Source: Saprospiraceae bacterium (lineage in GTDB: Bacteria > Bacteroidota > Bacteroidia > Chitinophagales > Saprospiraceae). Taken from it: 64,000 nucleotides of DNA. The notes beneath the pieces are model-generated. The model was not told the DNA's origin, made no database searches, and saw only the letters and a program-made list of their open reading frames with translations. Both the position numbers and the translations under genes were made by a program. Position 1 is the first letter of the stretch. The number at the start of each line of letters is the position of its first letter. The DNA lies in NCBI GenBank assembly GCA_013214355.1, contig JABSSL010000013.1:1-64000 (forward strand). The letters run 5' to 3'. Positions 7,352-12,230 of this stretch are shown piece after piece.

Positions 7352-8326
7352 TCAAAATTCCCGCACCAGAAGTTCGTGTGCTAAATCTGCCAACTCCTTT
7401 TTCCTTTCTGAAGACACTGCCACTTTTTCCAAATGCTTAAAAGCTTGGTCTTGGTAGCTTTGCATCTGTTCGGAAGCTACCTCTAATACTTGGTATTTTT
7501 CAAACAGCGAGGTAACAGCGGCTACCTTTTCAGCCTCTTCAAATTCCTTTGTACTCATCCAATGCTTGAGTGCCGCCTGATCTTCAGCATTAGCCAACTC
7601 CTGGGCCTTTAATAGTAGAAAAGTCTTTTTGTTATTCAGAATATCTCCGCCAACCTTTTTTCCAAACTTGGCTGGATCACCAAAGGTATCTAGGATATCA
7701 TCTTGCATCTGAAATGCCAACCCAATATTGCGCCCAAACGCGCCCAAATGATGGCAATTATCTGGTCCCGATTCTGCCAAAATCGCCCCAAGGCTCAAAC
7801 TCCCTTCGATTAGAGCCGCCGTTTTATATTCTATCATCTTTAAGTAGGCAGGAATGGTGACATCATCTCGGGTTTCAAAATCCATATCGTATTGCTGCCC
7901 CTCACACACTTTGATGGCCACTTCATTGAAGGTCTGCACCAAAGCCGGTATCAAAGCCGCTGGAGCTTTCAGCAAGAATTCATAGCACTTAATCAGCATA
8001 ACGTCTCCCGAAAGGATACCTGTATTCACATCGTATAGCTCATGAACCGTGGGTTTGCCACGCCGCAAAGGAGCTTCATCCATAATATCATCATGTACCA
8101 AACTAAAGTTGTGAAAAACCTCCACGGCTAAAGCAAGTGGTAAGGCTGGCTCATGTTTATCATGAAATAGGCGATACCCCATCAACACCAAAATGGGTCG
8201 GAGTCGCTTGCCTCCTAATTGCATAATATAATCTACCGGCTGATACAGGCCATTGGGGGCCTGATCAAAAGTATTGGCCTCCAAGTAGGCCATAAAATCG
8301 GAATAGTATGCGCTAACTAGTTGCAT
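7352..8326 (-). CDS. Polyprenyl (geranylgeranyl/farnesyl-type) diphosphate synthase
   Basis: A 324-residue trans-isoprenyl diphosphate synthase that condenses IPP with allylic diphosphates. The substrate motif GGKRLRP (about residues 34-40), the first Asp-rich motif DDIMDEAPLRR, the second QMQDDILDTFGD, and the intervening KTAALIEGS are all intact. Chain length cannot be set with certainty, but the fit is best to short-chain (C15/C20) enzymes of Bacteroidota, which supply quinone, carotenoid and undecaprenyl routes. Unusually for this window the start has a good ribosome site: AAGGAG, visible as ctccttt at 8332-8338, about 6-8 nt before the ATG. It diverges from the response-regulator gene. 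A carotenoid-type oxygenase 6 kb away may use its downstream products. Confidence 0.92.
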   Translation of the reverse strand: MQLVSAYYSDFMAYLEANTFDQAPNGLYQPVDYIMQLGGKRLRPILVLMGYRLFHDKHEPALPLALAVEVFHNFSLVHDDIMDEAPLRRGKPTVHELYDVNTGILSGDVMLIKCYEFLLKAPAALIPALVQTFNEVAIKVCEGQQYDMDFETRDDVTIPAYLKMIEYKTAALIEGSLSLGAILAESGPDNCHHLGAFGRNIGLAFQMQDDILDTFGDPAKFGKKVGGDILNNKKTFLLLKAQELANAEDQAALKHWMSTKEFEEAEKVAAVTSLFEKYQVLEVASEQMQSYQDQAFKHLEKVAVSSERKKELADLAHELLVREF

Positions 8327-8704
8327 GTTGGCTCCTTTTTAAATACGACAATGTCCATTCTTGTGAAGAGATCTGGACCAAATATCATTTCCTCTAATCT
8401 ATTTTCGAACAAAAGTCCCAAATATTCGTAATATGCCTCTAGGAGGGAACAATTATAAAAGCTATTTTTGGATATTAATCAATTTCGGGTTTAGGAGTTG
8501 GTATGAAAAGGGGGAACCAAGACTAGATACCGGCCTGTCTTCATCAACCAACATTCAAAGCAAGCATATTTTACTTGCTACGATACAAACGCTCCTAGCT
8601 TAAATAGATTAAGTGCAAAAAAGTTTGAAGATGAATTAGCTGTTCATCTTTTCAATTCAAAAAGGTATATTGGCCTTTCATTTGTTCATTTTATCCAAAG
8701 TGTC
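8327..8704. other. Divergent intergenic region
   Basis: About 378 bp separating divergent prenyl synthase and response-regulator genes. It holds the AAGGAG ribosome site of the synthase (minus strand, near 8332-8338). Promoters must lie here, but no full TAnnTTTG element with a matched -33 box was found. Confidence 0.5.
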
Positions 8705-9148
8705 GTGAAAGAAACCCGTCCATTTAATATTTTATTGATAGAAGATAACCCTGGGGATGTACGATTAACACAAGAGGCTTTCCGGGAAGGAAAGAAGGAG
8801 GTCAATCTGGAGGTAGTCATGGATGGAGTAGAAGCCATCAAATACCTGAGGCGTGAAGAGGGATTTGAAAAACGTCCAATGCCAGATCTTATTCTGCTGG
8901 ATCTGAACCTACCAAAGTGGGATGGGCGAGAAGTATTGAAAGAGATCAAAGCTGACTCAAACTTGAAGCGTATTCCCGTAGTTGTTTTGACTACGTCGAA
9001 TGCCGAGCAAGACATTATCCACAGCTATGACCTCCACGCTAATTGCTTCATTAACAAACCCGTAGACTTTGACAACTTCTTCGATATTATCCAGAAAATC
9101 GAAGAGTTTTGGCTAACAACCACCATACTGCCTTCTATGGCTAGCTAG
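8705..9148 (+). CDS. Single-domain response regulator (Rcp1/CheY-like)
   Basis: A 147-residue stand-alone receiver domain. Acidic pocket residues are in LLIEDNPGD (E13, D14), the phosphoacceptor is D66 in LILLDLNLP, the switch Thr lies in VVLTTSN, and the conserved Lys-Pro is in INKPVDF. The long beta-4/alpha-4 layout and the FEKRPMPDLILLDLNLPKWDG segment match the Rcp1-type regulators that work with phytochromes and hybrid kinases. It has no output domain, so it acts by phosphotransfer or protein contact. The start is a GTG at 8705. It lies 106 bp upstream of the multi-receiver protein and probably belongs to the same signalling module. Confidence 0.9.
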   Translation: MKETRPFNILLIEDNPGDVRLTQEAFREGKKEVNLEVVMDGVEAIKYLRREEGFEKRPMPDLILLDLNLPKWDGREVLKEIKADSNLKRIPVVVLTTSNAEQDIIHSYDLHANCFINKPVDFDNFFDIIQKIEEFWLTTTILPSMAS

Positions 9149-9254
9149 GTCAGTACGGACCAAATAACTTATTCATTATAACCTGCGTCTCCACTTTAGT
9201 TAAACTAACTGCTTTGTTGAACTTATTGCATTACTAGTCTTTTTCCCTATTTCA

Positions 9255-11177
9255 ATGAGTGCTCAAATCAACCATATATTAGTTATAGAGGATCTTGAAT
9301 CGGATGTTGAAATAATTAAGGCTTATCTAGAGGAAGCTTCCTTTAAGCACAAGCTATTTCATTCTGATACCTTAAAGGAGGCTATAAATCTTCTAGACGA
9401 AAACTCCATTGATCTGGTACTGCTAGATCTTTCCATTAATGATACTACTGGCTTCAGTACTTTGAAGAAATACCTAGATGAATCTTCTGATGTACCGGTT
9501 GTAGTCATGACTGGTAACAAAAATGAAATCGTCGGTATACAATCCGTGAAAGCTGGCGCACAGGACTTTCTAGTTAAAGGAGAATTTGATAGCAGACGGC
9601 TCGTTAATACCATCCGTTACTCTCTTCAACGGTTCAAGACACAAGCCAAACTCCAAAAACACGCTGAGGAACTTTCTATTACGGAAAAACGGCGACTCGA
9701 GGCCCAGAACATGGCCAAATTTGCCAACTGGGAAATGGACATTGTATCTAATGCCATGAGTTGGACAGAGGAAATGTTCCGAATCTTTGGTGTGCAACCC
9801 AATAGTTTTCAACCCTCCTTATCGGACTACTTAGATTTTGTCCACGTAGAGGATCGCGAGCAGGTTGAAGACTTCTTTGCTGAAGTTATCAAGACCGGGC
9901 AACTCAATCGGCTGGAACATAAAATCCTATTAAATAATCGACTCGTAAAGCACTTGACCATTCAGGCTCGTGTAAACTATGACGAGTTTACCAATAAGAT
10001 CATTCTAATAGGCTCAATTCAAGATACGACCTACCGACTTGATGAGGGGGAAACGGCCTTGCCAGAACCTTCAGATGAGCCACGGCCATCGGTGCAGAAT
10101 GGAGAATTCTACCGTTTCGGCTTCGGTATTCGGACGCCTTTTAGTTCTATTGTCAACCTAGTATACCTGTTAGAAAAGTCTAATCCCACCCCGCAACAAT
10201 CGGAATTGATCGATGGCTTGAAGACTTCGGTGGATGATTTGTCCATTGAGCTAAACAATATGCTCAATTTATCCTTGTTGATCTCCGATCATGTGCCTTT
10301 AAACGAGGAAGATTTTTCTCTATCAGATATGCTTGAGACGGTCCAGCGGGTGGCCAATCTCAAGGCCCAACAGTTAGAAATTCCAATCATTTACCAGAAT
10401 GAGAAAGAATTACCCAACATGGCAAAGGGCGATGCACCTAAGCTTTCGCAGTTGGTGCACAATCTCGTAGAACAGTGCTTTAGTCGCTCCAAAGCAGAGG
10501 GCCAGGTAGAGTTTCACGTTCATTGGTTCAAGCGTAAAAAAGATTTTCCTTTTGTTTTGACCGTACAATACCGCGGGGAGGCCTTCCCTACGGAAGAAGA
10601 GGTAAAGGAAAGAAGTCGACCCGTTCAAGATTCTGCTCAATCCTTACAAGAAGCCGCCGCGGATGATTCACTGAGTCTATCCATGATCTATCGACTGGTG
10701 GAAATCTTGGGTGCTAAATTAGAAGTCGAAGCACAAGGGGCCGGCAATACGATTAAACTAGCCGTTCCACTAGAATTGGGAAGTGAGGTTGAAGACGCTG
10801 GGATTCAAGCCCCTACACAACCTAAACGAATTCTATTGGTAGAAGATCATGTCATCAATCAAATTGCAACGAGAAAGGTATTGACCTCCTGGTCAGACTT
10901 ATTGACGGTAGATATTGCCGCAGATGGAGAGGAAGCGGTCGAAAAATTTCAGAACCAAAACTATGATCTGGTATTAATGGATTTACAAATGCCTAAAATG
11001 GATGGGTTGGAAGCTACGCTAAAGATTCGTTCTCAAAGCAAAATCCCAATTGTGGCACTTACTGCTAATTCATCTCGCCAAGAAGAAGAAAAATGCTTGG
11101 CGATTGGTATGAATGCTTACCTTGTCAAACCTTTTAAACCAGAAGAATTATACAGCAAGATTGCCAAGTTTTTGTAG
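9255..11177 (+). CDS. REC-PAS-degenerate histidine kinase-REC hybrid protein
   Basis: A 640-residue soluble protein: receiver 1 (about residues 6-125, phosphoacceptor D58), coiled linker, PAS-like domain (about 155-260), a histidine-kinase-like core (about 285-508) and receiver 2 (about 525-640, phosphoacceptor D576 in LMDLQMPKMDG). The kinase core looks inactive. The H-box reads FGFGIRTPFSSIVN, so the usual His-Glu is Phe290-Gly291. The N-box (NLVEQC) lacks its second Asn, and the G1 box DxGxG is replaced by YRGEAFP. Both receivers keep their pockets. It therefore probably serves as a dimeric phosphorelay scaffold or sink fed by other kinases, perhaps with the single-domain regulator just upstream. 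No membrane segments are seen. Confidence 0.88.
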   Translation: MSAQINHILVIEDLESDVEIIKAYLEEASFKHKLFHSDTLKEAINLLDENSIDLVLLDLSINDTTGFSTLKKYLDESSDVPVVVMTGNKNEIVGIQSVKAGAQDFLVKGEFDSRRLVNTIRYSLQRFKTQAKLQKHAEELSITEKRRLEAQNMAKFANWEMDIVSNAMSWTEEMFRIFGVQPNSFQPSLSDYLDFVHVEDREQVEDFFAEVIKTGQLNRLEHKILLNNRLVKHLTIQARVNYDEFTNKIILIGSIQDTTYRLDEGETALPEPSDEPRPSVQNGEFYRFGFGIRTPFSSIVNLVYLLEKSNPTPQQSELIDGLKTSVDDLSIELNNMLNLSLLISDHVPLNEEDFSLSDMLETVQRVANLKAQQLEIPIIYQNEKELPNMAKGDAPKLSQLVHNLVEQCFSRSKAEGQVEFHVHWFKRKKDFPFVLTVQYRGEAFPTEEEVKERSRPVQDSAQSLQEAAADDSLSLSMIYRLVEILGAKLEVEAQGAGNTIKLAVPLELGSEVEDAGIQAPTQPKRILLVEDHVINQIATRKVLTSWSDLLTVDIAADGEEAVEKFQNQNYDLVLMDLQMPKMDGLEATLKIRSQSKIPIVALTANSSRQEEEKCLAIGMNAYLVKPFKPEELYSKIAKFL

Positions 11178-11207
11178 CCGCGATATCATTTTGAACTGCG
11201 GCTCCCC

Positions 11208-11215
11208 TATCTTTG
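11208..11215 (+). promoter_or_regulatory. Candidate -7 promoter element (TATCTTTG) upstream of the reductase gene
   Basis: TATCTTTG fits TAnnTTTG, 31 nt before the ATG at 11247. A TTTTG at 11189-11193 is a -33 candidate with shorter than ideal spacing. An inverted repeat (AGCCGC / GCGGCT) just upstream could end transcription of the preceding gene. Confidence 0.45.
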
Positions 11216-11246
11216 TAATAATAGTTAGCAAACTGTAAAAAAGACT

Positions 11247-12230
11247 ATGATTACAAAGGAACTGATTATCATTGGCGGAGGCCCTACCGGAATCAATTGT
11301 GCCATTTCGGCAAAAAAGGCAGGCTTAGATTGCCTGGTTATTGAAAAAGGCTTACTCGTCAATTCTATCTATAATTTCCCCATCAATATGACTTTTTTCT
11401 CTACCTCCAAACTATTGGAGATAGGAGAAATTCCTTTCATCTCGCATGTTGAAAAGCCTACCCGCAAAGAAGCACTAGAATATTATCGCAGATTACAACA
11501 GTCCTATCAGATTGAGATCAATTTGTATGAAGCGGTCCAGAAAATGGAACGACTACCTTCCGGCAACTATAAGATAAGTACCTCAAAAGGAGTTTATCAA
11601 GCTCCATCCGTAATTGTTGCTACCGGCTTCTACGATACGCCTAGGCTGCTAAACGTACCCGGTGAAAAGCTCCCAAAGGTTAAGCATTATTACGATGATG
11701 CTCATCCTTATATTGGGCAAAAAGTCCTTATCGTCGGAGCAGCTAATTCAGCCTGTGACGTGGCCCTGGAGGCCTGGAATAAGGGAGCTGAAGTTACTAT
11801 GGCAATCCGTAAACATGAGATTTATCCAAAGGTCAAATATTGGATACGTCCCAATATCGAAAATCGGATAAAAGAAGGCAGCATCACGGCCCACTTCAAT
11901 ACGGTCGTAACGGAAATCAGGGAAACTGAAGTAGATCTGCTGGGCCCAGACGGTCCTTTTACCATCGAGAATGACTTCGTATTAGCCATGACGGGGTATA
12001 AACCTAACTATACACTCCTCGAAAACTTAGGCTTAGACATTCCCGACGATGAAGCCCGTATTCCCGTCCACGATCCGGAAACGCTAGAAACTTCCTTGCC
12101 TGGTGTATATTTAGCGGGAGTGGTTTGTGCAGGGATGCGGACTAGTAAGTTGTTCATCGAAAACACTCGAGATCATGGCGATGTCATCATTGAGCACATC
12201 CAAAAGCGTGCAGTGAGCACAACAGTCTAG
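11247..12230 (+). CDS. ypdA: YpdA-family bacillithiol disulfide reductase (FAD/NADPH)
   Basis: A 327-residue flavoprotein of the thioredoxin-reductase-like fold but without the CxxC redox pair. It has the FAD-binding IIGGGPTGINCAISA at the N-terminus, the second dinucleotide motif VLIVGAANSACDVALEAW near residue 155, and a C-terminal GVYLAGVVCAG segment with the conserved Cys. The PTGINCAI and NMTFFSTS segments are typical of YpdA (Bdr), which uses NADPH to reduce bacillithiol disulfide and keep the bacillithiol/bacilliredoxin system working; many Bacteroidota make bacillithiol. It is cytoplasmic. The gene ends convergently with the GIN-domain gene and shares a CTAG stop overlap. A -7 promoter element lies upstream. 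Confidence 0.88.
   Translation: MITKELIIIGGGPTGINCAISAKKAGLDCLVIEKGLLVNSIYNFPINMTFFSTSKLLEIGEIPFISHVEKPTRKEALEYYRRLQQSYQIEINLYEAVQKMERLPSGNYKISTSKGVYQAPSVIVATGFYDTPRLLNVPGEKLPKVKHYYDDAHPYIGQKVLIVGAANSACDVALEAWNKGAEVTMAIRKHEIYPKVKYWIRPNIENRIKEGSITAHFNTVVTEIRETEVDLLGPDGPFTIENDFVLAMTGYKPNYTLLENLGLDIPDDEARIPVHDPETLETSLPGVYLAGVVCAGMRTSKLFIENTRDHGDVIIEHIQKRAVSTTV

Follow-up and report, generated by a model that had tools for sequence, protein, structure and literature searches.

One gene in the 64,000-nucleotide stretch of Saprospiraceae DNA analysed here (hereafter the window) encodes a protein laid out like a hybrid histidine kinase, in which the histidine expected to carry the phosphoryl group is replaced. 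A first-pass annotation had read it as a kinase that lost catalysis while selection kept the phosphoacceptors of its two receivers. To our knowledge, few pseudo-histidine kinases have been described, and these mostly as single cases. The locus raises the question of whether the loss belongs to this copy or to its whole lineage, and of what a dead kinase would be kept for. The features concerned are:

8705-9148, forward strand: single-domain response regulator of the Rcp1/RcpA family with phospho-Asp66 (codon 8900-8902); Pfam Response_reg, 74.1 bits
9255-11177, forward strand: pseudo-histidine kinase, REC-PAS-DHp-CA-REC, 640 aa; single ORF, Pfam, 138 homologues without the His (H-less)
9255-9629, forward strand: REC1, Asp58 codon 9426-9428; Pfam, family alignment, AlphaFold model
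9720-10040, forward strand: PAS_3 domain; Pfam, 42.3 bits
10107-10289, forward strand: DHp (degenerate HisKA); alignment with His-bearing paralogues, two-helix DHp in the model
10122-10127, forward strand: Phe290-Gly291 replacing His-Glu, within the DHp
10134-10136, forward strand: Thr294 (H+4), within the DHp
10290-10778, forward strand: CA (degenerate HATPase_c); Pfam, alignment, fold retained in the model
10821-11174, forward strand: REC2, Asp576 codon 10980-10982, full receiver quintet; Pfam, invariance across the family

The receivers of the window protein were matched by Pfam at 163.9 bits (Response_reg, twice). The two kinase domains scored below their curated cut-offs, HisKA with 19.1 bits (cut-off 26.9) and HATPase_c with 23.9 bits (cut-off 26.4), and residues 290-640 gave NCBIfam matches to ArcB, LuxQ and TorS that were far under cut-off. 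No Hpt match was found in the protein with Pfam at E up to 10. The PAS_3 domain, which is separated from REC1 by a long helix, was matched by 29 of 29 members of the first homologue set (A2). In an AlphaFold model built on 26 aligned sequences (mean pLDDT 80.2, pTM 0.47), the DHp still forms two helices and the CA keeps its fold; as predicted there, the order of the domains is reliable and their arrangement relative to each other is not. Among the top Foldseek matches of the model are hybrid or sensor kinases, for example ShkA; for its DHp-CA region, RetS is one of them.

Alignment with L032, a His-bearing paralogue from the same genome, revealed the extent of the degeneration. The H-box SVSHEMRTP of the paralogue corresponds to RFGFGIRTP in the window protein, which bears out the exchange of His-Glu for Phe-Gly that had been noticed from the letters. 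The N-box and G1 box are degraded, as had also been claimed: Gln407 stands for the N-box Asn, Tyr439 for the G1 Asp and Ala443 for the second G1 Gly. The G2 box has changed from GLGL to SLSL (S472, S474), and one of six ATP-site residues is left. The receiver site of REC2 is complete (E530, D531, D576, T603 and K625). The window protein has the DHp-CA fold and the homology of a HisKA kinase (sub-cut-off Pfam and NCBIfam matches, the model and Foldseek), and it lacks the phospho-His, an acidic residue at H+1 and the ATP residues of the N, G1 and G2 boxes. Because these three defining features were looked for and are absent, we did not place it in an active kinase family.

Homologues were collected from a starting set of 29 full-length H-less proteins (L001-L029, the window's own included) that came from a search of 100 relatives. 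When a profile made from these 29 was run against 398 genomes of the same family (Saprospiraceae), 154 matched at 1e-90; in a class-wide profile search of 295 genomes, the matches retrieved from outside the family (L189-L196) bear a normal His. The alignment comprised 168 distinct proteins from 179 loci, identical ones being merged, with 138 lacking the His and 30 bearing it. The H-less family has at least 138 members, lower-scoring homologues such as G133, G141, G223 and a G199 fragment having been left out, and as collected it spans 138 genomes and 53 genus groups. These genomes are Lewinella-like Saprospiraceae, and the nearest named relatives are uncultured Lewinella and a Saprospiraceae bacterium. 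No His-bearing protein scored above 534 bits on the family profile. A literature search by name and by feature, whose coverage left out most subscription papers, found no publication on the family.

His290 was found in 0 of 138 H-less homologues, whereas all 30 related kinases aligned with them have it, indicating that its absence is not due to chance. The loss of catalysis that had been proposed is, at the level of the kinase residues, fixed family-wide and not peculiar to this copy. The opposing case that the annotation had named, a recent mutant among homologues with a normal His, fails, and a recent mutation of the window copy is ruled out. Position 290 is Phe in 128 of the 138 proteins (Tyr in 4, Ser in 3, and Pro, Lys and Glu in 1 each). 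It ranks 68th in conservation over 640 positions, so Phe290 is conserved rather than drifting; Thr294 ranks 41st. At position 291 we found His in 62, Asn in 31, Gln in 29, Gly in 5, Asp in 2 and Glu in none of the 138. The RTP motif that follows is present in all 30 His-bearing kinases and was retained by most H-less members (Arg293 in 129, Thr294 in 132 and Pro295 in 130 of 138). The ATP site has decayed to varying degrees: at least five of the six residues are kept in 31 of 138 members and two or fewer in 95, and all six are present in 30 of 30 His-bearing kinases.

Both receivers of the window protein keep their Asp, as first described, and the view that selection kept the phosphoacceptors holds strongly for REC2 across the family, with D531, T/S603 and K625 in 137 of 137 proteins and D576 in 136. 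The sole exception at Asp576 is L278, which has Asn there and whose H-box and CA are degraded too. The same view fits REC1 less well, since residue 58 is Asp in 110 of 135 proteins, Glu in 17, Asn in 7 and Ser in 1. The changes to Glu and Asn hint at a locked REC1 in part of the lineages.

The same genome encodes K (G000:C198), a paralogue 31% identical to the window protein, with intact HisKA and HATPase_c; it is an intact SHE/D-type kinase with the same layout as the pseudokinase. A tree of 76 proteins, 46 of the 138 H-less and 30 His-bearing, was built with the H-box columns left out, and in it the H-less proteins occupied one side of a branch with support 100. On this tree one change suffices, and multiple independent losses of the His are unneeded. 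In a mixture-model tree with outgroups, which took in 19 of the 138 pseudokinases, clades were formed by the pseudokinases (100/100), by K (100/99) and by the outgroup kinases S (100/100). The three together made up one clade (98/93), and the sister grouping of pseudokinases and K was weak (88/45). The early pseudokinase branches of this tree (L226, L234, L013, L187 and L185) are among those that keep the ATP site. Because the early branches of a single H-less clade still hold this site, the simplest history suggested by the sequences is a single loss of the His, ahead of the decay of ATP binding. In the window's lineage both are gone.

Among three genus-mates, dN was 0.007-0.037 in the DHp, 0.026-0.041 in REC2 and 0.061-0.071 in the CA; dN was used alone, and dN/dS ratios were set aside because synonymous sites are near saturation among these genomes. 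By these values, the window protein is under purifying selection. Mean pairwise identity in the H-less family was 60% for REC2, 47-48% for REC1 and the DHp, 46% for the PAS and 24% for the CA, the last compared with 47% in the K clade. One mark of pseudo-histidine kinases of the DivL type, beside a non-catalytic binding of receivers that depends on phosphorylation, is a loss of the phospho-His that is fixed across orthologues with the remainder under selection, and this mark was found here. Judged from its homologues, the window protein is almost certainly an ancient dead kinase under selection.

The gene upstream of the pseudokinase, 106 bases away, encodes a receiver whose best solved relatives are RcpA (1k68, 5e-45) and Rcp1 (1i3c, 9e-41). 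With Rcp1/RcpA as its nearest relatives, no output domain and the phospho-Asp present, it has the marks of an Rcp1-type single-domain regulator, and all five receiver residues are present in it and in the family-linked copies. It belongs with Rcp1/RcpA by sequence and differs from them in its neighbour, which is the pseudokinase and not a phytochrome kinase. The pseudokinase-linked receivers share 67% mutual identity, with the acidic pair and the Asp in 89 of 89 (one short sequence of 90 was dropped). An Rcp1-like receiver lies directly upstream in 87 of the 131 members with enough DNA, or in 90 when three overlapping frames are counted, and even then 41 of the 131 have no adjacent receiver. 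The single receiver reported just upstream is there in the window, but it is absent in about one third of the family. At 1e-35, no Rcp1-like receiver was found in the three pseudokinase-less genomes searched.

Other genes recur around this pair. A Pyr_redox_3 gene lies downstream (window 11247-12230), and the cluster of its product, which we take to be YpdA-like, recurs in 11 of 36 loci. A divergent gene at window 7352-8326, presumably for a polyprenyl synthetase-like product, precedes the receiver-pseudokinase pair, and its cluster recurs in 20 of 36 loci. Consensus promoters and terminators were sought over 8300-11300; the 11 and 2 matches compare with averages of 6.9 and 2.4 in shuffled sequence and were left aside.

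An HPt gene follows K, or is fused to it, in 16 of 17 K loci examined. Of three separate HPt proteins tested with Pfam, two were above cut-off and the own-genome copy was below (20.2 against 24.6). The own genome (G000) has 93 HisKA matches and only 3 Hpt matches above cut-off; since a K-linked HPt was missed by Pfam, the HPts of this group are probably under-counted. In L307:2727-5432, K is a protein of 902 aa with the HPt fused at its C-terminus. Immediately upstream of K, 16 of 17 loci encode a protein of about 115-140 aa; six of these form one BLAST cluster and the other ten were judged by position and letters alone. The own-genome copy (L151:7424-7792, contig 198) had no Pfam match at E up to 0.1.

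Of the 138 genomes that encode the pseudokinase, K was found in 120, compared with 13 of the 260 that do not encode it; by genus the figures are 48 of 53 and 1 of 59. This co-occurrence stems partly from shared descent, because both proteins may derive from one duplication, which by itself would produce much of it. One genome, G026, was counted as K-absent with a K-type match at 2.3e-141 whose position was not listed. A deeper search of the 18 pseudokinase genomes that lack K (11 at least 90% complete, 7 less than 90%) gave no more K-like matches, the best non-pseudokinase place scoring 452 bits. REC2 Asp576 is kept in all 18, which argues that K is not the sole reason for keeping it. In raw counts, Phe/Tyr290 was lost in 6 of 18 K-lacking genomes and 0 of 120 K-bearing ones, and RTP in 7 of 18 and 9 of 120, respectively (p 0.001 for RTP). 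On the tree, decay of the DHp upon absence of K was not significant: the Phe290 losses amount to two events, RTP gave mixed signs, and there was no significance in independent pairs.

Loci L309-L311, from another family of the class, bear on the origin of this arrangement. In each, an Rcp1-like receiver precedes a hybrid kinase that bears the His and two receivers, and an HPt is present as well: a separate gene in L310, a fusion by Pfam in L309, and in L311 a 38-bit match only, to a custom HPt profile. Identity between their Rcp1-like receivers and the pseudokinase-linked ones is 55-59%, compared with 35-38% for other such receivers. From their gene content, these loci are likely to be a living picture of the ancestral operon. 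Because the outgroup operon has all the parts and receivers this similar, we infer that the pseudokinase locus resembles the receiver half of a formerly complete relay, and the K locus its kinase-HPt half.

The facts given so far hold across the sequences of the family, and from them we infer the wiring. That the pseudokinase is a non-autophosphorylating node of the relay of its paralogue K has, in our estimate, about an even chance. A duplicated phosphorelay would have divided its parts, with K keeping the HPt beside it and the dead copy keeping the Rcp1-like receiver. Judging by the residues, autophosphorylation of the DHp is as good as excluded, so REC2, if used, needs an outside donor. Its phosphoryl group would most likely arrive by reversible exchange with an HPt, and descent and co-occurrence make that of the K relay the first candidate; other hybrid kinases are possible donors, since Asp576 remains where K is missing. 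Input from PAS and REC1 would be read out through the dead DHp, which is, by its sequence conservation, too conserved for a mere linker. The DHp may still dock a receiver, whether its own, the Rcp1-like protein or that of K, and would sense or dephosphorylate it. In sum, the node would gate, drain or divert the phosphate flow of the K relay, and would give phosphate to the Rcp1-like regulator or withhold it. A sharper and more tentative version is that the whole operon was duplicated, that one copy retained kinase and HPt, and that the other, with Phe fixed at its phospho-site, became a dedicated PAS-controlled phosphoryl acceptor/phosphatase, which would drain the sister relay via REC2 and gate a private receiver.

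We also consider it possible, with the balance of probability against it, that the protein is a dedicated phosphatase, whose DHp would bind a phosphorylated receiver, the Rcp1-like one or another, and remove its phosphate by hydrolysis via Thr294 under the control of PAS and REC1. Phosphatase activity is often supported by nucleotide binding, which has probably been lost in the window protein and thus counts against this reading. In HisKA proteins, according to the available part of PMC3510030, the acidic residue beside the His serves the kinase activity only and a Thr or Asn at H+4 the phosphatase activity only, as measured on CrdS, HK853, HK1190 and HK4262, and CrdS with its His changed to Ala retained most of its phosphatase activity. 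The family matches these rules, the kinase residues His and Glu being gone in 138 of 138 members (Asp stands at H+1 in two) and Thr294 kept in 132. However, R-T-P is shared with 30 of 30 kinases and may be structural, PleC requires its His for phosphatase activity (same part of PMC3510030), and DivL, as far as the accessible text of PMC4211667 goes, has the usual boxes yet neither kinase nor phosphatase activity. The relay node was ranked first and the phosphatase second because the residue pattern fits the phosphatase rules, but a DivL-like domain may only bind.

Direct inhibition of K is less probable still. Here the pseudokinase would pair with K through DHp/CA contacts and block or tune its autophosphorylation, much as GacS is blocked by RetS (PMC4866733, in the portion available). 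Common ancestry and co-occurrence with K favour such pairing, as do the Foldseek matches of the model's DHp-CA part to RetS (TMt about 0.6) and to the RetS-GacS complex in the PDB; but the DHp sequences of the pseudokinase and K have diverged, and the RetS match shows the HisKA/CA fold only. A plain phosphate sink, which the annotation had suggested alongside an allosteric scaffold, would have receivers that absorb phosphoryl groups from other kinases and then lose them by hydrolysis; it could make use of the intact REC2 site (136 of 137) and of the 93 HisKA matches of the genome as possible donors. We regard it as improbable, as it leaves the conserved PAS, DHp and Phe290 unexplained, and also a dN as low in the DHp as in the receivers. 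It is more doubtful again that the family hides a cryptic kinase with another acceptor, for example the His291 of 62 of the 138 members, though 31 of the 138 do keep at least five of six ATP-site residues. Position 291 is elsewhere Asn, Gln or Gly (31, 29 and 5 of 138), so His291 as a substitute acceptor is not general in the family; it is ruled out for the window protein, which has Gly291 and whose ATP site is gone. A decaying pseudogene would account for the CA, the fastest domain and less conserved than in the K clade, and for little else: it is already contradicted by homologues in 138 genomes, a near-invariant REC2 and low dN, and we give it next to no credence.

Several known proteins provide comparisons for how the pseudokinase may work. 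RetS differs from the window protein in having kept its H-box His, in its two C-terminal receivers, in being membrane-bound and in carrying a 7TMR-DISM sensor. It is alike in being a hybrid kinase that acts on another (PMC4866733, same portion) and, by the model, in its DHp-CA fold. In DivL of Caulobacter crescentus an aromatic residue likewise replaces the His and the DHp fold is kept; its kinase activity is not needed, and it is tied to the CckA-ChpT hybrid kinase-HPt relay and to the single receiver DivK (sections of PMC4211667 and PMC9430884). Unlike the window protein, DivL carries multiple PAS domains, lacks receivers and retains its ATP-site boxes, and the homology shown here is that of the HisKA/CA module. 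RcsD resembles the active hybrid kinase RcsC in architecture, has an inactive kinase domain and acts as a relay node (excerpts of PMC13317618); it keeps an HPt and has no receiver, whereas the window protein keeps receivers, the HPt being left with the active copy. CCNA_03265 / CC_3162 of Caulobacter is a hybrid kinase without the conserved His in which the receiver Asp is kept, and its authors raise two possibilities, that an HPt phosphorylates it and that it forms heterodimers with another hybrid kinase (PMC11481889, in part). It is a single case and is likened to the H-less family by function alone. The ChrS pseudokinase variant of C. glutamicum is a dead kinase that works via a paralogous kinase, but it arose in the laboratory by a frameshift in the CA and its His is intact (PMC9491836, in part).

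Collectively, these data suggest that the window protein probably works by controlling or drawing on its sister relay, not as a kinase. Some members of the family keep the ATP site and others have lost it; together with an intact paralogue and a seemingly complete outgroup operon, this lets one ask in what order a kinase dies and what a dead kinase is retained for. Since the kinase-only residues are lost and the phosphatase-only residue is retained, a cheap and decisive test is possible. If the draining of the sister relay is true, the family would represent a family-wide, naturally evolved kinase-minus/phosphatase-plus hybrid protein that serves as a drain or branch point.
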